Shown in pieces: positions 6,301 through 60,257 of a DNA stretch of 64,000 bases. The notes under the pieces are model-generated. The model was not told the origin of the DNA and did no database searches. It saw nothing but the letters and a program-made list of their open reading frames with translations. The DNA comes from a virus: the IMG/VR virus record IMGVR_UViG_3300042562_001598, positions 25,149 through 89,148 of that record. The stretch is one strand, 5' to 3'. The position numbers and the translations under genes were made by a program. The stretch's first letter is position 1; every line of letters begins with the position of its first letter.

Positions 6301-9300
6301 TATTAGATGTTGAGTATCCTTATAAGTCAGCGGCTTATTTATTCATTAATAGTTTACCTTTAGCTACTTTAAGAGAAAAATATAAAACATATGAAAATGA
6401 ATCATCAAATGATTTAGATTATATTTTCGCAACATTAAAGAAATTTGGTGCAATACATAAATTACCTTACGCTTGGGTATTAAAGATTGGTTCAATATGG
6501 CATAGATATAAAACATATGTTAATACTAATGTTGATATTATTGATACTTCTTGGTCAGGTTTTAGTTATACTAAAAACTTTTCACCTATAGCTAATTCTC
6601 CGGAGACAAATTATTCGTTAAATTTCAATAATGGGTTTTATGATATTGTTTTAGAGAAAAACACTACATTAGGTACTGAAGTTTCAACAGTTATTAATAC
6701 AGGATTTTATCCTAAATTAATAAATGATTTTAATATTTTTTATCAAGGGTTTGAAGTTTATACTGGTTATACTAATTCTGACATTCAGAATGGATTCAAT
6801 TCTGGGGTTACATTAAATTATGTACCATCAGCAATTATTGATTCAAAAGAAGGGTTTGATAGTAAAAATAAAGGTAGAGATTTAAGAATTGTACCTTGGT
6901 CTGTTTTTGTTAATACTAGAGATGGTATTTCATCATTTATTATGCCATCACAAGGGTCGTTAATTAATCAAACTAAAAACGAATGTTTCACTAATGAAGG
7001 TAAGTTAGAGTTTGAAGTTACTGGTAATACCGCAATGTATAACGGTTCGGTTCGTTTATTTTGGTCAGCGCCTAATTATGGTTACTTTGATGTTAATAAG
7101 GTTGTTAAACCATTACCGCATCAATATATGAAAAATGTTTCACCAACATCATATTCTGTATTTGGATTTTCAGTTTCAACACAAGAAAATTATTCAATTA
7201 ATGGTCAAAGTAGTGGATACACTTCTATGAATGAGATTTTTTCTGTATTTGAAAAAGATATATTAGATAAGTTTGAAACGGAATTTTTAGATTTTTCTAA
7301 ATCAATATATGATTATCAAAGTACGGACATTTCAAATACTGATAGTAATTCCGAAAAATCATTTAAGAATTTTCAGATGTTGATGAGAGATTTAATGAAA
7401 GTCCCTAAAAGTAAAGGTATTGACGGTAAAGAAATCATTACTGATATGCAAAAACAACAGATAACGAGTCTTAGTAATGGGTTGAATCAATTTTTAAATT
7501 ATGATGTAGTTTTCAAATATGGTAATCCTGCTAATTTTGATAAAAGGTTATTCTATAGTTTTTCAAGTCCTAAAATTACTAACCCATATACTTGGGATAA
7601 GTATTCAATAACAACACCAAATACTTTACCAACTAGTGGTGGAAGTGTTACTTTATTACAATCTAAAACTAATTCTCCTGATGTTTGGAAAACTTTGGAA
7701 ACTTATGTTGGGTTTTCAGATGTTAGTGGTCTTACTTATAGTAATAACGGTTCTTGTATTACTGATTTTTTTGTTGATTGTAATGTAGCGTTTAATACTG
7801 AAAATATAATTAATTTAGCACCAATTATTAAAATATATGCGACTCAAAAATTAAAAGATAAAACTTTAAATTATTCTAAATTTATAAAATTAATGGATAA
7901 TTATATTTTATCGGTTAAGAACTTCCAAGATAAAACCTTTAATAATTTAATGATTAGATTACGACAATCATTACCTGATGTTGGTAATGCTTCTAAACCT
8001 AATTTTGAAACTGTTTTAGAAGGTACTCAAACTAAAGTTGAATTATGGGAATCGTTTAAAGCTATTAATGATAAATGGATTTCCGGTGGAGATTTTAAAA
8101 CTAAAACATTATTTGAGGATGTGTTATTATTGGATAGAGCTAGTAGAAATGTAGGTAACGAGATTTTAATTGATGTTTATAAATTAAAGGACTTATTGAC
8201 AAATATACCTGAAAAAGTGAGTATGTTAAGTTTTGTTCAGACTATATTGGTTGAGAATAATTTTGTTGTTATGAATTTACCATCCTATGTTAATTTTTAT
8301 GGTGTTCAAGACGCGGTAAAAAATCCAATACCAAAAGCTGAAGGGACTTTAGATTTTGCAAATACAATGTTTGGTGCGTTTATGAATGTTGATTATAGAG
8401 AATCTTCGGCTAAATTAGTTTGTTTTTACGCAAGTAAACCAAGTGAACATGTTGAAATGAAAAACAATGTTGATTATAGATTCAAAAATGATGCGTTTGA
8501 CTTAAGAAAAAATGACAATCCATTAGTTGAGAATCAAATGGGTAAAAATGATTGGGATAAGTCAAATAAAGTTGTTGGGTTTAATGTTGACATTGGTCCT
8601 CAAAATCAATCTATATTCTATGGTTTCCAAGTTGACCAAAACCCTGGTTTAGCCACAGCAGAATCTTTAGAAGTTTTAAATCAAATGGCTAATTTATACG
8701 GCAATCGTGGAGGTGCAAGTCAAAATGTGTCATTATATAATTTATATAAAAACAGAAGTTATACTTGTACAGTTTCTATGATGGGTAATGCTATGATACA
8801 ACCGACAATGTATTTCAATTTAAGACATGTCCCTATGTTTAGTGGCCCTTATTTAATTCAAAAAGTTACTCACGCTATAAATCCAGGTAGTTTTGAAACC
8901 ATTATAACGGGTATAAGACAACCAACAGCGTCATTACCTAAAATAAATGATTATATTCAATCATTAAAAACTAACTTATTGAAAACTATTATTGATAAAA
9001 ATAAACAAGATAGAAAAAATAAAGAGGAGTCTATTAAATCAAATAGTAAAGGTGATGTTATAAAACAAAAAGCGGATACATATAATGATGCTATGAATAA
9101 GGGTGGAAATACTTCAGCTTCAGTTGCTAATTGTTATCCAGCTAATACTGGGGGAACTCAAAATATTGGGTATAGTGAATATGTTGTTGTTACAGCACCT
9201 AAAAGTACTAAAGAAAGTTTTAAAACAATTGCTGATTTAATTAGTTCTAAAACTTCAGATAAAAAATTACGATACATTATTTTCACTACATTACATTTGG

Positions 9301-22279: not shown

Positions 22280-25200
22280 ATGTCAAATTCATATAGAATA
22301 AGAACCAAACCTGGTGTTGATGAATCAATAAATATTTTAATTGACCAAGAGTTTGAATATTTAGAGATTTTATCTTTAAAATTACTGCAAAGTCAAATAT
22401 ATACAAGACAATGTTCTGATTATGGGGTTGTTGTAGGTCGTGTTAGTGTTAATAATGGTTTTGGTTTACCAAATGCTAAAGTATCTGTTTTTATTCCTTT
22501 AGACACGACTGATGAAGCTGACCCTGTAATCTCTGAACTATATCCATACAAAACATTAACAGAATTAAATGATGATGGGTATAGATATAATTTACTACCT
22601 TACAAACCTTCACATAGTGGACATGTACCTACGGGTACATTTTTTGATAGACTTGATGTCTTAATAGACCCAACTTTAATTGAGGTTTATGATAAATACT
22701 ACAAATATACCACCGTAACTAATTCAAGTGGAGATTATATGATATTTGGTATCCCAACGGGAAGTCAAACTATTGTTATGGATGTTGATTTATCAGATAT
22801 TGGGGAATTTTCATTATCACCTCAAGATTTAATACGAATGGGCGCTGCGACATCTAATCAAGTTGCTGGAACAAAATTTAAAGCGTCTACTAATTTACGA
22901 GAATTACCACAATTAATTACAATTAACAAAACAATTGATGTTAGTCCGTTATGGGGTGAACCAGGATTATGTAATTTAGGTATAACAAGAACTGATTTTG
23001 ATTTATCTGGAGAAGCTAATATTGATATTAGACCTACAGCTATATTTATGGGGTCAATCATTTCAACAAATGATAATGATTCTATAAAGGCTGGTTGTAC
23101 TGTTAGAAGTAATGGGGGTTATTTATGTGATATGATTACTGGTCCAGGTGAAATTTTAGCAATTAGACAAACCATATATCAAGATTCTTATGGTAGACCA
23201 ATTTTGGAAACTGTTGATTTAGATGAGGGTGGTCAAGTTATTGATGAGAATGGAACTTGGATGGTTGATGTCCCAATGAATTTGGATTATGTTGTAACTA
23301 ACGAATTTGGTGAACAAGTTATTTCTGACGACCCTAAAAGAGGTATTCCGACTAGAGGTAAATACCGATTTAAAGTTAAATGGAATCAATCTCCTTCATT
23401 GTCTGAAAGTGTAAAAAGAGGTTATTTTTTAGTTCCTAATATTAGAGAATATGGATGGTCGGGTACTAGTAAAGACGACCCGTTTTTTATTAAAGATATT
23501 TCAACAGAGTATAGTAGTTATCAGTTAGCTATGAAATCATATTCATTTAGTTTAGATTGGTCGGATTATGGTTATACAGGTTCTTCTTTGAATAGTAACG
23601 CTGTTATTGGTAGGCAAATGATTCAAGATGCTATAGATTGTAAAGATACTTTCTATGATATGAAATATAATAAAGTCTATACTGTGTCCCAATTACTTGA
23701 TAAGTATAGAAAAGGCTATAGTAATGATAGATTTATTGGTGTTAAAAATATTTTAGACAATAGTTGTCAGAGTGAAAATTATAAATTCCCAACAAATGAT
23801 TCTAATCTGAGGTTAGATATTATATTTATATTATTTTCATTATTAATGATGGTTTTCAGACCTATTTTGTATGTTCTTGTATTAGTAATGCACATATTAT
23901 TCTTTATTTTAGAGTTACTTAAATCTTATTTAGTTTATGGCCTTGTTGGATGGGCTGCTTTTGCTGCTTACAATGCGTTTACCGCGGCTAGTGTTTCCGC
24001 GCCAGCTTTTGGTTTAACAGCAACAAATATTGCTGCGGGAGTTGCTTATCTTACTTTAGGTGTTATGTTAGTTTTTGTTAGAGATGAGTTAAAAAAAATA
24101 GATTTAAATGGTATTAATTTACCTTTATTAACTTATCCTGATTGTGATATGTGTGATTGTGATGCAACAGGTGCAACACCAGGTAATGCCCCTGGAAATA
24201 GTAAAGTTTTAGCTAATAAAAACAGAAGAATTCCATGTAGTACAATTACTTCAGATTTAACACCTATGAATGTTTTAATGTCAAATATTCAAATTTCACA
24301 ACTAGGTACACCAATATATGACTATCCATTTTTTGATGACGAATCGTATAAAACAGTTGCTTTTATGCAAATTTTTGCGGGTAAACAATATGTTGATAGA
24401 GCAGATGTTAGTATTGGAACCTCAAGTTTAGTTACAGCAAAATATTCAATCACTGATAGTAGTGGTAATGATAAAAACTATACTGATTATTTTTTCACTT
24501 CAAGTTTAACTTTAGCCGAAAGAATTAATTTGTTTAACACTAAAGCGAAATATTTCGACAATAGTCCAAATAACCCTGGTGGTGGTGTTAATAGAATTAG
24601 AACAACTTTCGGAATTAATTCTAATCCGGGAAAATCTCACCTTGATAATACTATTGTTATTATTGGTGATATTAATAGTTTAAGTAATTATATACCAGGT
24701 CAATTAATTAGTTTCCAAAATCCAAATTTATCTAAAGATTTAAACACTACAAATGCTATAGCTAATCAATATGGTAATAATGCAATTACTGGAACTTCAG
24801 CTACAACTACGACGATTACGGTTAATTTCGCAAAAACAGATGGTTCAGGTAATAGTGGTGTTACATATAATAATATTGTTCAAACTGGTGATAGCGTGTA
24901 TCATAAATTCCCTATTGATATGGAATATTTCCAAGTAATTACTGGTATGACTTATGATAGTTTTTCGGCTAATTGTTCTAATGATATTGTCAATTCTTTA
25001 AACAACAGGTTTCTGAATAATAATATGAGGGTTATTGAAATTACTGGTCAACATAGTGGTGAGGATAATTGTCAAGAAGTTCATATGGTGTCACCAATAA
25101 CTAAAGTTGATGATTATAAAAATTTATCAGTAATTATTTTAAATAGAGGTGTTGACCCATATTCTTCTAAAATTGATGTTCAGTATGATTTAAGTGTTCT

Positions 25201-54854: not shown

Positions 54855-54889
54855 AATAACCATCAAATTACTTGATGGTTATTTTTTTT
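54855..54889 (+). terminator. Terminator after gp46, overlapping a promoter
   Basis: A perfect 12-base-pair stem (AATAACCATCAA/TTGATGGTTATT) with a five-base loop and a T-run. The TTG of the next promoter's -33 box lies in its right arm. Confidence 0.9.
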
Positions 54890-54902
54890 ATGTTTACATT
54901 TG
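54872..54902 (+). promoter_or_regulatory. Bacteroidetes-type promoter for the helicase/methylase cluster
   Basis: TTG at 54872-54874 and TACATTTG at 54895-54902 (full TAnnTTTG match), 20 bases apart. It overlaps the terminator of the preceding gene and lies about 28 bases before the ATG at 54931. Confidence 0.6.
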
Positions 54903-54930: not shown

Positions 54931-55914
54931 ATGGAAAATAGTTTATATCCTAAAGTTAGTTACGACCGAATGTTTATTTATGCTTGGTATGAGAAAACCA
55001 ATGAATATGAAACTAAATTTGGTGAACACTGGGTGAAAGCAGATGTTGACCCTAAAACTGATATTGACAAATATGTTAGAAGTTCTATGAATAGACGAAA
55101 AGACCTTTTTGATGATGGGACTATTGTTGTTGAATCAATATGGGATGTAACAGAATATTCTAAAAAATATGATAAATATTACCCTAAATCACATGTTGAT
55201 GATAAGATTCGTAAAGAAATCGGGTATGTTAAACAAAGTGAGGTTCATAATCTTCACTTTGCAATTTTAGTTGAGAAAGTAAATGAGATTCTTAACAAAG
55301 AAAATCAACAAAAACCTGAAGTAGGTTTATCTACAGCACAATACGATGATGCGGTTTTAGTTTTGAACGCTATTGACAATGGTAAACGTGTAATTTTTTC
55401 TGAATTAGCGGCAAGATATGGTAAAACGATTTGGTCTTCAGCGATAGCTGTTGAGACGGGTATTCCAATTGTTATTGTAGCTTCTTATGTGTTAACATCA
55501 TTTACCTCGTTCAAAAATGATATTATGGATTTTCAACAATTTCAAAACATTAAGACTGTTGATACTTCGGATGGCGATTATAAAGAACAAATTAAAAAAT
55601 ACGTAGATGAAGGAAAACAAGTTATGGTATTTCTATCACTATGTAATGGTATAGGTCGTAATGACCGTATTAACTTCTTAAATAACCTTAATGTTCAAAG
55701 ATTAGTTTTTGTTGATGAAGCGGATTATGGTGCTCACCAAAAGAAACAATTTGAAGCTTTAAAGGCATTAGTGAGTAATGATGATATTTTGATATTAATG
55801 ACCGGAACTAACTCAGATAGAGCTTCATCAGATTGGGATATTGATTTTATGTTGTCTACAACATATTTTGAACTTTTAGTCAATAAAAAAGAGTCCATGG
55901 CTTTGGTTAATTAA
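54931..55914 (+). CDS. SF2 helicase, N-terminal half (split gene)
   Basis: A 327-residue protein. The first 110 residues (MFIYAWYEKTNEYETKFGEH, then WVKADVDP, RRKDLFDDG and ESIWDVTEYSKKY) resemble, in outline, GIY-YIG/T5orf172-type nuclease domains, but this is not certain. Residues about 135-325 are the first RecA-like lobe of an SF2 helicase: motif I ELAARYGKTIW near residue 160, motif Ia AIAVETGIPIVIVASYVL, motif II VFVDEADYG near residue 258, motif III LMTGTNSDRA near residue 288. It stops where the second lobe would begin. The second lobe is encoded by the next gene. The gap between them holds a promoter and start. Confidence 0.75.
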   Translation: MENSLYPKVSYDRMFIYAWYEKTNEYETKFGEHWVKADVDPKTDIDKYVRSSMNRRKDLFDDGTIVVESIWDVTEYSKKYDKYYPKSHVDDKIRKEIGYVKQSEVHNLHFAILVEKVNEILNKENQQKPEVGLSTAQYDDAVLVLNAIDNGKRVIFSELAARYGKTIWSSAIAVETGIPIVIVASYVLTSFTSFKNDIMDFQQFQNIKTVDTSDGDYKEQIKKYVDEGKQVMVFLSLCNGIGRNDRINFLNNLNVQRLVFVDEADYGAHQKKQFEALKALVSNDDILILMTGTNSDRASSDWDIDFMLSTTYFELLVNKKESMALVN

Positions 55915-55933
55915 TATATTATAACTATTTTTG
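55902..55933 (+). promoter_or_regulatory. Bacteroidetes-type promoter between helicase halves
   Basis: TTTG at 55902-55905 and TATTTTTG at 55926-55933 (full TAnnTTTG match), 20 bases apart. It begins inside the 3' end of the first helicase half and ends 23 bases before the ATG of the second. Confidence 0.6.
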
Positions 55934-55956
55934 ATAAAAAATAAAAAATCAATATT

Positions 55957-57201
55957 ATGTTAAAGTTTTTCAAAAAAGATATTAAAAGAGATTTAATATA
56001 CGCTTCAGTTCAGGGGTATCAATTAGATTTGAGACCGGTTGTTGAAAAAGCAAAACAACTTCATTCTAACCATGATGAATTACCATCTTGGCGTAAACTT
56101 GTGGAAAACCCTAAAAAAGGTAAAGGTTGGTTTGTTACATTACTGGAGGGCATGTTCAAAGGAAAACATAATCTTAATGGAATTAATGTTGAGAATCTTG
56201 TGGATTCAACTAATGGAGAATTATCAAATCGTCGTGTTACTATGATGTTTTTTCCGGATAATACTAAAGTTGCTAATCTTATAACTATTGGTAAAATAGC
56301 CCAAGAAACTTTGGGAGGTTGGAAAATTAAAGTCCTTAACGGGATGACGGTTAAAGATAATTCTGAATGTGAACAAAAAGTTAAAGAATGTATAGAATCT
56401 ACTGATGATAATGTTTTGATTATCTCATCTAAAATGGCTCAACGGTCTTTTTCCCAAAGTTTAATAACGGAAGTTTATTTAGCTTATGATAATGGTCAAG
56501 ATGGTGCAACAATTCAAAAGATGTCCAGAGGTTTGACTTCAAATACTTCTGATAAAATAGCTCGTATTTTTTCATTATCATTTGACCCTAATCGTGATGA
56601 TAAAATAGATACTTTAGTATTTCAAGCAGCTTTAAATCAGGTTGAAAAGAAAGGTAAAACAGATATTCGAAAAGAATTACGAAGAGTGTATGAGTCAATT
56701 GACATTTATTCTTGTAATGATGATGGTGCGTTTAAGTTAAATGTTGATGATTATGTCAAACAAGCACTTGAGAAAAAAGGTATTTTTCGTGTTATGGGTA
56801 AAAAGTCTGACCTTACTATGCTTAGTAAAGAACAACTAAATGCTTTGGCTCAAGGTAATGTGAGTTTTCTTCGTAATGAAATGAAAGAAAAAACTGAAAT
56901 TGGTAAAACAAAAGACCCTTTACCTAAAAACATTGGTAAAACAGAAACGGAAAAACCTAATGATAAAGAAATTAACAAAGTTCGTGAGGTTATTATTAGT
57001 ATTATTGAACATTCTGATATTATTATGTTAGCAGCTAAAAATCAGGGAGGTAAAAATATTATTGAAGCTTTAGCCATCATTGAAAAAAATAATTGGACTT
57101 CAATAATAGAAAAAGAATTTGAAGTGAGATATGATGTTATTAAGTATGTATTTACGATGGGGGTTATAAAGAATGAGTGGGTTGATATTCTTCACGGATA
57201 A
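55957..57201 (+). CDS. SF2 helicase, C-terminal half (split gene)
   Basis: A 414-residue protein that starts after the helicase hinge. DLIYASVQGYQLDLRPVVEK and MMFFPDNTKVANLITIGKIA match the second RecA-like lobe entry. NVLIISSKMAQRSFSQSLIT is motif V-like and GATIQKMSRGLTSN is motif VI (Q-K-x-x-R-G). Residues about 275-414 form a Lys/Glu-rich accessory region that includes helical stretches. Alone it would lack motif I and II and be inactive. Together with the 54931 product it should form a full motor. The reading frame is intact and has its own promoter, so a sequencing error is unlikely. Confidence 0.75.
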   Translation: MLKFFKKDIKRDLIYASVQGYQLDLRPVVEKAKQLHSNHDELPSWRKLVENPKKGKGWFVTLLEGMFKGKHNLNGINVENLVDSTNGELSNRRVTMMFFPDNTKVANLITIGKIAQETLGGWKIKVLNGMTVKDNSECEQKVKECIESTDDNVLIISSKMAQRSFSQSLITEVYLAYDNGQDGATIQKMSRGLTSNTSDKIARIFSLSFDPNRDDKIDTLVFQAALNQVEKKGKTDIRKELRRVYESIDIYSCNDDGAFKLNVDDYVKQALEKKGIFRVMGKKSDLTMLSKEQLNALAQGNVSFLRNEMKEKTEIGKTKDPLPKNIGKTETEKPNDKEINKVREVIISIIEHSDIIMLAAKNQGGKNIIEALAIIEKNNWTSIIEKEFEVRYDVIKYVFTMGVIKNEWVDILHG

Positions 57202-57202
57202 T

Positions 57203-57233
57203 TTTGGATATTAAATATTATTACCTATTTTTG
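57203..57233 (+). promoter_or_regulatory. Bacteroidetes-type promoter for the methyltransferase gene
   Basis: TTTG at 57203-57206 and TATTTTTG at 57226-57233 (full TAnnTTTG match), 19 bases apart. It lies two bases after the helicase stop and 17 bases before the ATG at 57251. Confidence 0.65.
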
Positions 57234-57250
57234 TAAAAAAAAAAGAAATT

Positions 57251-58426
57251 ATGTTTTCACGAATAAAATTTGATATTAGTGCTATGGTTACTGATATTTA
57301 TAGTAAAATACCTCAAGAGATGTTTGAGTCTGATGTAACTACTTTTGTAGATATACAAGCGGCTGGATTACAATTTATCATTCCTTTAATAGAGATACTT
57401 CGTAAGAAAGGACATTCTGACGATAACATTCGTAATAGAGTGTATGCTTATGCCGAGAATGATTTATATTTAAATTACGTTATGTTTAAATATAAGGGCT
57501 TACCAATAACGTATAAAATATATGATGAAAAAATTAATATGAAATTTGATGTTGTAATTGGTAATCCACCTTATAATAAACAAGTTGGACCTAAAAAAAC
57601 TCAACCTGTGTGGCCTAAATTTGTTGAAAAATCTTTTGATATGTGTAAGGAAGACGGTTACGTTAGTTTAATACATCCAAATGGATGGAGAAATTTTGAT
57701 GGAAAGTTTAAGGATATTCAAAAATTATTATTATCTAAATGTGTTAAATATATTAATATGAATTCACCTAGTGATGGTGTAGAAGTATTTAAAGCTCAAA
57801 TTGCTTTTGATTATTATCTTATACAAAATAAAAGTCATGAAAATGAATTGGTTGATATTGTTGATTATGATGATAAATTACACAATATTGACATTAGAAA
57901 TTTTGATTTTATACCAAATAGTAATATAGATTTAGTTTATTCTTTAGTTGCTAAAGAAGGTGAGGAGACTGTTAAAATTTTACATAGTTATTCTGATTAT
58001 GAAACCAGAAAAAATTATATGTCAAAAGTTAGGACTGAAGAACATATTTACCCTTGTGTGTATACTGTAAAAACTAATGACACATTAACATATTTTTATA
58101 GCAATAAAAACGATAACGGACATTTTGGCGTTCCCAAAGTAATATGGGGTAACGGTGCTAGTTATGGTGTGATTATTGACGAAAATGGTGAATATGGTTT
58201 GACACAGTTCTCATACGCTATTGTTGATGAACCTAATAATTTACCGTTAATAAAAAAAGTATTGCAAAGTAAGTGTTTTATTCAGAATATTATGGGGTAT
58301 TATGGTGGTACAACGTTAATAATATTTAACAGAAAAATTATCTCAACATTTCGTAAAGATTTTTGGAAAGAATTTCTTGATGAAAATAACAATGTTATAG
58401 AACCAAAACTTACAGATGTTAAATAA
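57251..58426 (+). CDS. N6-adenine DNA methyltransferase with altered SAM motif
   Basis: A 391-residue protein. The catalytic motif IV is clear: FDVVIGNPPYNKQVGP near residue 105, followed by the usual YVSLIHPNGWRNFDGKF strand-helix and later GTTLIIFNRKII. At the N-terminus (residues about 30-45), where SAM-binding motif I should be, the text is TFVDIQAAGLQFIIPL. It has the FxD position but not the usual DPxxGxGxF glycines. Thus the target-side domain is intact while SAM binding may be weakened. The gene overlaps the next by 11 bases, and that next gene has an intact motif I. I infer a two-component methylase. It follows the split helicase. Confidence 0.75.
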   Translation: MFSRIKFDISAMVTDIYSKIPQEMFESDVTTFVDIQAAGLQFIIPLIEILRKKGHSDDNIRNRVYAYAENDLYLNYVMFKYKGLPITYKIYDEKINMKFDVVIGNPPYNKQVGPKKTQPVWPKFVEKSFDMCKEDGYVSLIHPNGWRNFDGKFKDIQKLLLSKCVKYINMNSPSDGVEVFKAQIAFDYYLIQNKSHENELVDIVDYDDKLHNIDIRNFDFIPNSNIDLVYSLVAKEGEETVKILHSYSDYETRKNYMSKVRTEEHIYPCVYTVKTNDTLTYFYSNKNDNGHFGVPKVIWGNGASYGVIIDENGEYGLTQFSYAIVDEPNNLPLIKKVLQSKCFIQNIMGYYGGTTLIIFNRKIISTFRKDFWKEFLDENNNVIEPKLTDVK

Positions 58427-58838
58427 ATATAAAAAACATATAAGAGACAGAGTTTATATGTCGGGTATTGATAGAGATAAACTTAGAATTAAACAAACTG
58501 CTGAGGTATTTACACCTCAGCATCTTGTTATAACAACATTAGATAAATTGGAATTAGAAAATCCGGAATTATTTACTGACCCAACAAAAACTTTTATAGA
58601 TAATAGTTGTGGTGATGGTGAGTTCCTGGGGGAGATTGTAATACGAAAGATGGAACGTAGTGGTTGTACATTAGAACAAGCTTTATCAACCACTTATGGT
58701 GTTGATATAATGGAAGATAATATTGAGGAATGTAAAAAGAGATTGGCTGGTCCTACACCTACTGAAGAAATATACAGAATCCTTAATAAAAATATTGTTT
58801 GTCACGATGGTTTAACTTATAATTACGATTTTAATTAA
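58416..58838 (+). CDS. SAM-binding methyltransferase half with intact motif I, lacking NPPY
   Basis: A 140-residue protein. LRIKQTAEVFTPQHLVITTL matches the entry (FxT/TPxxLVxxxL) of adenine-methylase domains. TFIDNSCGDGEFLGEIVIRK near residue 59 has the motif I glycine pattern. TYGVDIMEDNIEECKKRL is motif II. The protein ends at NIVCHDGLTYNYDFN, just before where NPPY (motif IV) should follow. So it has the SAM site but no catalytic motif, complementary to the upstream gene. The overlap of 11 bases fixes their stoichiometry. Small proteins of this kind occur in other phages beside longer methylases, as far as I recall. Confidence 0.75.
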   Translation: MLNKYKKHIRDRVYMSGIDRDKLRIKQTAEVFTPQHLVITTLDKLELENPELFTDPTKTFIDNSCGDGEFLGEIVIRKMERSGCTLEQALSTTYGVDIMEDNIEECKKRLAGPTPTEEIYRILNKNIVCHDGLTYNYDFN

Positions 58839-59456: not shown

Positions 59457-60257
59457 ATGAAAACTAAAAGCTATTCAATTCCGATTAATCAAGAAGAAAT
59501 TAATGTTTATCTTAAAGATATTCGTAAGATAAAAGTTATGACTCCTGAACGAGAGAGAGAACTATCAGCACTTATAAGTTCTGGGACATTAACTGAAAAA
59601 GAAATTCAACAAGTTAATAAGGAACTTTTGGAAGGTAACTTACGATTTGTAATTACGGTCGCTAAACAATATCAAAACCAAGGATTACCATTTCCTGACT
59701 TAATCGCTGAAGGTAATTTAGGTCTTATGAAAGCCATTCATAATTTTGACTGGTCAAAAAACCTAAGATTTATTTCTTATGCTGTATGGTGGGTTAAACA
59801 ATCTATTTTACAATCATTGAATGATAATGCTAGAACTATACGACTACCGGTTAATGTTGTTCAGGATTTACATCGTGCTAAGAAAGAGATTGAAAATAAT
59901 GGTGGAAAACTTGAAGATAAGTTTCAAAATTTACCATCAATGATATGTTTAGATATGAGTATTAATGAAGATGGTGACACTTTAGTTGACATAATTAAAA
60001 ACGACCAAGCGGATATGCCGGATGAAATATTTAATAGTAAGGATTTATTAAAACAAAAACTTATGTCTTTATTACATATGTTAAATGAAAGAGAAAAAAT
60101 CATTATTGAGGATTATTTTGGATTGTCGGGTGCACCAAGAACACTTGAGGATATTGGTAATGATTTTGGATTAACTAAAGAAAGGGTTAGACAAATCAAA
60201 GAGAAGTCAATTAGATTTTTAAGAAACAATTCTAAAGAATTATTTGATTATGTATAA
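59457..60257 (+). CDS. Sigma-70 family factor, primary-like
   Basis: A 266-residue sigma factor resembling the Bacteroidetes primary sigma without region 1.1. Region 1.2 is NVYLKDIRKIKVMTPERER. Region 2 contains GNLRFVITVAKQYQNQGLPF, DLIAEGNLGLMKAIHNFDW and the DNA-melting AVWWVKQSIL. The region 3 area reads RTIRLPVNVVQDLHRAKKEI. Region 4 has REKIIIEDYFGLSGAPRTLE and the helix-turn-helix LTKERVRQIKEKSIRFLRNN. It would redirect host RNA polymerase to phage promoters; T4 uses gp55 for this, which is much smaller. All regions seem intact, so this looks like a whole gene captured from a host. A terminator follows. Confidence 0.9.
   Translation: MKTKSYSIPINQEEINVYLKDIRKIKVMTPERERELSALISSGTLTEKEIQQVNKELLEGNLRFVITVAKQYQNQGLPFPDLIAEGNLGLMKAIHNFDWSKNLRFISYAVWWVKQSILQSLNDNARTIRLPVNVVQDLHRAKKEIENNGGKLEDKFQNLPSMICLDMSINEDGDTLVDIIKNDQADMPDEIFNSKDLLKQKLMSLLHMLNEREKIIIEDYFGLSGAPRTLEDIGNDFGLTKERVRQIKEKSIRFLRNNSKELFDYV

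Follow-up and report, generated by a model that had tools for sequence, protein, structure and literature searches.

Restriction enzymes of type ISP, such as LlaBIII and LlaGI, combine an N-terminal Mrr-like PD-(D/E)XK nuclease, a superfamily 2 (SF2) motor and then a gamma-class adenine methyltransferase with one target recognition domain in a single polypeptide. Natural DNA methyltransferases made of two polypeptides are known from M.AquI and M.EcoHK31I (PMC3404938), and parts of a jumbo-phage survey note circularly permuted M.EcoKI-like adenine methylases (PMC7824862). Here we analyze a four-gene cassette (O1 to O4) in a 64,000-nucleotide (nt) stretch of a large Bacteroidetes-type phage, hereafter the window, that covers positions 25,149 to 89,148 of the 282,192-bp IMG/VR virus record IMGVR_UViG_3300042562_001598. 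The cassette shares with type ISP enzymes the order of an SF2 motor followed by a gamma-class adenine methyltransferase and one recognition domain, but it consists of four genes, its S-adenosylmethionine (SAM)-binding lobe is separate, and the SAM pocket of its methylase is degenerate. We consider it probable that the cassette is a phage restriction-modification-like system, in which O1 and O2 form a translocase, O3 provides recognition and the catalytic NPPY motif, and O4 is a SAM lobe completing O3 in trans, the other genes being an exchangeable cassette beside a fixed O4.

An initial annotation, made from the letters of the window alone, had described four open reading frames (ORFs) here, a third gene with NPPY and an altered SAM motif, and a fourth with an intact SAM motif and no NPPY. 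The coordinates, the 11-nt overlap of O3 and O4 (58416-58426) and both motif readings were confirmed. O3 reads DIQAAGLQF where D-P-x-x-G-x-G-x-F is expected, and according to the alignments it also lacks the acidic residue after strand 2 and an EVFTP-type motif X; its GNPPY is intact, and NPPY is near-invariant across 34 homologues. O4 carries EVFTP, DNSCGDGEF and YGVDIMEDN and stops just before the position of motif IV. The two genes had been called complementary methyltransferases: the halves are indeed complementary in methylase function, but a single methyltransferase made of two chains is the better reading. The AlphaFold2 (AF2) model of O3 (predicted local distance difference test, pLDDT, 87.5; predicted template modelling score, pTM, 0.85) resembles in Foldseek CamA (E 6.8e-17), M.TaqI and M.BseCI, recognition domains included; those enzymes share the fold and domain layout of O3 but bind SAM in the same chain, whereas motif I of O3 is degenerate.

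O4 is a gene of its own in nearly every relative, even in those where motor and methylase are fused, and the few fused exceptions are Aeromonas phage Ah1, L118 and L081 (L numbers denote loci of relatives). In Ah1, the NPPY half and O4 are joined in one ORF in the same order, and L081 has the undivided order in one chain, with an O4-like lobe, a linker and then MKFDFVVCNPPY. In the latter locus (6980-8705), two short ORFs come after the undivided O4-NPPY methylase; they are homologues of the O3 recognition end and could be alternative recognition pieces. A joint alignment of O4-only rows with the fusion was discarded, as its mean column identity was 12% and the O4 rows apparently lay on the O3 pseudo-lobe. 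At motif X, the O4 coding sequence contains a near-perfect hairpin, TGCTGAGGTATTTACACCTCAGCA (58499-58522).

Single-sequence searches of IMG/VR matched only one near-identical contig from another record (3300033984_000379), which carries the identical four genes, and alignment-based scans were needed for further relatives. An O4-alignment scan of IMG/VR, with patterns built on motifs X and II and not on motif I, yielded 80 loci, and at every one with enough upstream sequence an NPPY gene adjoins O4, mostly directly 5' with an overlap of 1-20 nt. The partner seemed to be absent in L040, L045 and L046, which proved false, since a 1243-aa (amino acid) ORF upstream of O4 has INPPY at residue 964 (shown for L046). 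The two proteins differ in how their SAM motifs are conserved: G-x-G is kept in 62/63 non-redundant O4 proteins, whereas motif I is intact in 15 of the 63 non-redundant NPPY partners (L048 being assigned to this class by hand), the lobe is degenerate in 24, and no lobe is present in the other 24, which begin at MKFDxxxGNPPY. On the catalytic-domain tree, the partners switch between the lobe-less and lobe-bearing states 11 times, at least 7 of them forced, and the lobe has thus disappeared or been swapped more than once at one and the same MKFD junction. The partners form a series of lobes that are intact (DPAIGGGQF), degenerate (DLQMAGGQF, then DIQAAGLQF), eroded and absent, and this series is what replacement by O4 would leave. 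Relatives consisting of an NPPY half and O4 only also exist. In one locus (L044, 2706-7480), a single O4 comes after five NPPY halves in tandem that are 23-52% identical to one another; one SAM subunit may here serve several target specificities. Two isolates both named S-CAM7 differ as well, one having the full four-gene cassette and the other an NPPY half, each with O4 (L002, MT586120, versus L013, KU686212).

In phages that share the gp46-like 5' flank and the sigma factor 3' flank (the syntenic set), mean pairwise identity was 75% for O4, 71% for the sigma factor (range 64-86%) and 63% for gp46 (58-72%), compared with 43% for O2, 33% for O1 and 27-34% for O3; the O3 catalytic row has a median of 32% and contains zero values from an extraction error for L030, with little effect on the median. 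The counterpart of O1-O3 is a single 1144-aa gene in L028, and L030 has in their place a nuclease of 192 aa and an NPPY half of 305 aa. Judging from these comparisons, O4 is constant next to the core genes, and the motor, catalytic/recognition and nuclease genes are exchanged between phages. In Lak phages, giant phages of the gut, a further kind of change is seen within the cassette. Across 6,363 bp, the sole difference of Lak-B2/B8 from Lak-B7, compared between single assemblies, is the inversion of 1,086 bp that lie between perfect inverted repeats of 72 bp. This inversion explains 570/570 differing positions and swaps the C-terminal half of the NPPY gene, which encodes the recognition part. 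Similar inverted repeats are present in the Lak-B1/B3 and Lak-C1 cassettes. O4 is kept in the Lak B, C and A2 records, the examined cassettes (B2/B7/B8, B1/B3, C1) differ, and Lak-A1 has only a scar. This scar of cassette loss is one ORF (L128, 6056-7048) made up of the N-terminal end of the Lak-C1 helicase, a region of the GIY-YIG homing type and the final residues of O4.

O1 and O2 together encode a single SF2 DNA translocase, divided between the two domains of the motor, in agreement with the initial annotation, which had seen a helicase in two genes. Motifs I-III (ELAARYGKT, VDEAD, MTGT) lie in O1 and a motif VI-like block in O2, and O2 aligns to the C-terminal half of fused helicases (L029, L039) at 45-50% identity. 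The AF2 model of the in-frame O1-O2 read-through (pLDDT 80.5, pTM 0.77) matched in Foldseek Snf2-type motors and the restriction motors LlaBIII (type ISP; 4xqk, E 1.8e-10), SauUSI and EcoR124I HsdR. These matches, together with one-gene relatives in which helicase and methylase are fused, bear out the restriction-like layout of helicase and adenine methylase that had been proposed for the cluster. All four genes recur in Synechococcus phage S-CAM7, in unchanged order and with the helicase divided at the corresponding position; the split also occurs in L015, L016, L051 and L053, and the helicase is a single gene in L017, L029, L039, L068 and L095. In other relatives, it is joined to the methylase in proteins of 1055-1255 aa, in the order motor, methylase, recognition. 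The fused or split state switches 5 times on the helicase tree, at least 4 of them forced by well-supported branches.

The same evidence bears on whether the cassette is simply decaying, with a SAM-dead O3, a helicase split by nonsense mutation and nothing that works. O2 lies in the frame of O1 with two TAA codons between them, the nearest relatives of the window helicase (L029, 50%) are fused, and motif I of O3 is degenerate, all of which speaks for decay. Nevertheless, the split lies at a domain boundary and recurs in the phages listed above, O2 begins with a start codon of its own and is preceded by a -7 box, the identical contig comes from another IMG/VR record, the NPPY, Walker and DEAD motifs are intact, and a degenerate SAM lobe in O3 is usual among relatives that look functional, so that decay is very improbable. 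The same-frame cut at a domain boundary, the separate start and the recurrence in other phages and on another contig also ruled out a simple frameshift or assembly error as the cause. The split, which falls where one RecA-like domain gives way to the other, is therefore real, and it is probably neutral. Homologues intact in one gene, which the initial annotation had named, with frameshifts here, as a refuting finding, do exist for the helicase, whereas the SAM lobe is a gene apart in nearly all relatives and its fusions are few.

Several observations weigh against O4 completing O3 in a restricting complex. The predicted structure of O3 is a whole Rossmann fold in which the pseudo-lobe is folded too, so that O4 must displace the pseudo-lobe or dock elsewhere. 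The partners of L015-L017, L028, L053 and L095 retain an intact motif I of their own, and O4 is therefore not only a replacement. Furthermore, no Pfam match to GIY-YIG was obtained for O1 of the window, hhalign of the window clade reached 13.5%, and no nuclease other than this possible GIY-YIG domain was found in the four window genes. The first two points would suit a complex that senses SAM and sites without methylating, O4 being a SAM-sensing or regulatory subunit and O3 a pseudo-methyltransferase for target recognition that gates the motor or nuclease: the O3 lobe is folded yet SAM-dead, some partners own an intact lobe in addition to O4, and SAM is an allosteric cofactor of type I and type III restriction enzymes. 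We regard this as unlikely, given that NPPY hardly varies among the 34 homologues, which suggests that catalysis, or base flipping at the least, is under selection, and that lobe-less NPPY halves would then have no function without O4.

The nuclease question bears on an alternative modelled on P1 DarB, an antirestriction helicase-methylase that is packaged in the virion and protects DNA in cis. In this DarB-like alternative, the motor carries the methyltransferase along phage DNA and marks it against host restriction without cleavage. Such a modification-only or antirestriction role would agree with the lack of a demonstrated nuclease in the four window genes and with relatives that are an NPPY half and O4 alone. 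The initial annotation had suggested a GIY-YIG-like N-terminus for O1. The pattern of that superfamily is Y...K[FI]G...R...E; the O1 N-terminus has conserved Y...KFG...D residues (Y17, G31 and D90 are conserved) and a beta-beta-alpha start in the AF2 model, and GIY-YIG-related domains match above cut-off in relatives, namely MUG113 in the sister helicase L015 (2.7e-5) and T5orf172 in the helicase of the bacterial locus L108 (9e-7); the suggestion thus finds profile support in relatives but no sequence support in the window O1 itself. An Mrr-like PD-(D/E)XK nuclease, as at the N-terminus of type ISP enzymes, was looked for in O1 without a Pfam nuclease match, relatives showing MUG113 or T5orf172 instead. 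Several relatives pair O4 with restriction-type nucleases: the nuclease profile of L030, L050 and L052 matches Hpy188I (GIY-YIG; 3.7e-12) and T4 endonuclease II (1.2e-4), and a PD-(D/E)XK-like protein, judged by eye, stands next to the NPPY half/O4 pair in ACG-2014f, Bellamy and Lak-B2. These pairings and the domains of the sister and bacterial helicases make a modification-only role rather unlikely in our estimate. The Hpy188I-like genes lie just 5' of the NPPY half and O4 (L030 5421-5999, L050 5514-6089, L052 5500-6072) and form with them, in these large phages, a compact set that resembles type II systems; in L070 (4991-6115), a protein that by eye looks like PD-(D/E)XK (GDFVIQF...SLKNY) has the same position.

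In favour of the restriction-modification-like reading are the NPPY gene that regularly adjoins O4, the opposite conservation of the two SAM pockets, the Ah1 fusion, bacterial sets with a like division, the constancy of O4 in syntenic phages, the restriction-type companions, the Lak inversion and the five NPPY halves of L044. On this reading, O1 and O2 would use ATP to translocate along double-stranded DNA as type I and ISP motors do, and the N-terminus of O1 may be a nuclease domain. O3 would find the DNA site and carry the catalytic NPPY pocket after the loss of SAM binding, and O4 would bring SAM and complete O3 in trans. The motor could then translocate and restrict with whatever nuclease is attached, phage DNA being marked and unmarked host or rival DNA attacked, and cassette exchange could change the target site and the weapon while one cofactor subunit stays. 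If O4 does supply SAM in trans, specificity and weaponry might change by one cassette swap or one flip of the recognition domain, without rebuilding the whole enzyme. It would also offer a natural testable series, of intact, degenerate, eroded and absent lobes beside the same O4, for the evolution of permuted and two-chain methyltransferases, the model of which has to our knowledge been based so far on inference and engineered enzymes.

Homologous sets are also present in bacteria. Most of 27 bacterial genome-contig loci, from Actinobacteria, Alphaproteobacteria, Bacteroidota and Lactobacillaceae, encode an O4-like protein of 209-246 aa together with an NPPY methylase and a helicase of the ResIII type (the T5orf172 domain was tested in L108); the chromosomal sets are L097-L122. 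The O4-like family is homologous to O4 (hhalign 99.9%, E 3e-31) and keeps G-x-G (E-P-A-C-G-x-G-N-F), whereas the lobe of the NPPY partner reads D-P-x-T-K-S-G-x-F or an equivalent degenerate form. The bacterial sets therefore share with the phage cassette the three components and the division into intact and degenerate SAM motifs, but differ in that the O4-like gene is usually first and longer, at the size given, and the NPPY protein keeps its lobe. PADLOC labels pieces of these sets REase_MTase_IIG and MTase_II, and we know of no system name for them; the recurrence of this composition in bacterial genomes points to a defence type that is widespread and unnamed. More broadly, phages and bacteria might share a system class with a universal SAM subunit (O4) and interchangeable catalytic/recognition subunits, some of them phase-variable by inversion, where O4 in phages is fixed in the core genome and serves any adjacent motor, nuclease or recognition cassette, and where the graded loss of the partner lobe represents intermediates of circular permutation. 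We see the arguments for and against this wider proposal as evenly balanced.

The cassette stands between two core genes (Table 1), and the terminator that had been described ahead of it was located. Full TAnnTTTG boxes had been noted before three of the four genes, and they are present before O1, O2 and O3; as promoter evidence they are weak, because the window as a whole contains no more of them than expected (103 found, against 114 expected). Outside the window, the same phage genome has two more N6_N4_Mtase genes (PF01555; G000:C1:143829-144473 and G000:C1:182726-183484).

Table 1. Features of the O1-O4 cassette and its surroundings; positions refer to the window unless a locus is named
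Feature	Position	Strand	Basis or remark
gp46/SbcC-like flanking core gene, 5' anchor of exchangeable segment	52511..54841	+	phrog_77 E 1.6e-43
Intrinsic terminator	54855..54883	+	between gp46-like gene and cassette; 12-pair stem, then T run
TACATTTG, Bacteroidetes-type -7 box ahead of O1	54895..54902	+	pattern match
O1: N-terminal domain (GIY-YIG-like fold possible) and RecA-like domain 1 of SF2 translocase, 327 aa	54931..55914	+	motifs; phrog_22930 E 2e-11; AF2; Foldseek
O1 motif I, ELAARYGKT	55402..55428	+	alignment
O1 motif II, DEAD	55714..55725	+	alignment
TATTTTTG, -7 box between O1 and O2	55926..55933	+	pattern match
O2: RecA-like domain 2 and helical C-terminal region of translocase, 414 aa	55957..57201	+	alignment; AF2
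O2 motif VI-like QKMSRGLT	56515..56538	+	alignments
TATTTTTG, -7 box ahead of O3	57226..57233	+	pattern match
O3: gamma-class N6-adenine methyltransferase fold and C-terminal target recognition domain, 391 aa	57251..58426	+	Pfam Eco57I E 3.5e-14; AF2; Foldseek
O3 degenerate motif I, DIQAAGLQF	57350..57376	+	both glycines lost relative to DPAIGGGQF / DPCMGKGVF of relatives
O3 motif IV, NPPY	57563..57574	+	N105, P107 invariant in 34 homologues
O4: free-standing SAM-binding lobe of 140 aa with motifs X and I to III, stopping short of motif IV	58416..58838	+	homologues in at least 80 viral loci, 73 phage records
O4 motif X, EVFTP	58503..58517	+	alignments
O4 motif I, DNSCGDGEF	58599..58625	+	G-x-G kept in 62 of 63 non-redundant O4 proteins
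Sigma factor flanking core gene, 3' anchor	59457..60257	+	phrog_351 E 1.3e-49
Inverted segment in Lak phages	L010 5829-6914 (Lak-B2) versus L124 (Lak-B7)		
Similar repeats in Lak phages	L126 5031-5117/6257-6344; L129 4501-4655/5689-5843		

Among known systems, the PglX methylase of bacteriophage exclusion (BREX) was rejected as a match (best 14.5 bits versus a cut-off of 500). M.AquI and M.EcoHK31I, unlike the cassette, are C5-cytosine enzymes split in the variable region or in motifs IX-X and not at the SAM lobe, and we know of no partner exchange for them. In the permuted methylases of jumbo phages, as far as parts of the survey describe them, the catalytic part precedes the SAM part, as in O3-O4 and in the Ah1 fusion, and those parts (PMC7824862) mention neither a SAM subunit that stands alone and is shared nor an exchange of cassettes. 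In the open-licence literature searched, no account was found of a SAM subunit that stands apart and is shared by exchangeable or invertible catalytic-recognition cassettes. The Lak inversion resembles the invertible HsdS genes of type I shufflons, in which a recognition domain is likewise swapped by inversion between inverted repeats, but it occurs in a phage and in the catalytic subunit that carries NPPY. Two-chain cytosine and permuted adenine methyltransferases are thus already known, and what the cassette and its relatives appear to add, relative to that literature, is a free-standing and shared SAM subunit with exchangeable and invertible partners.

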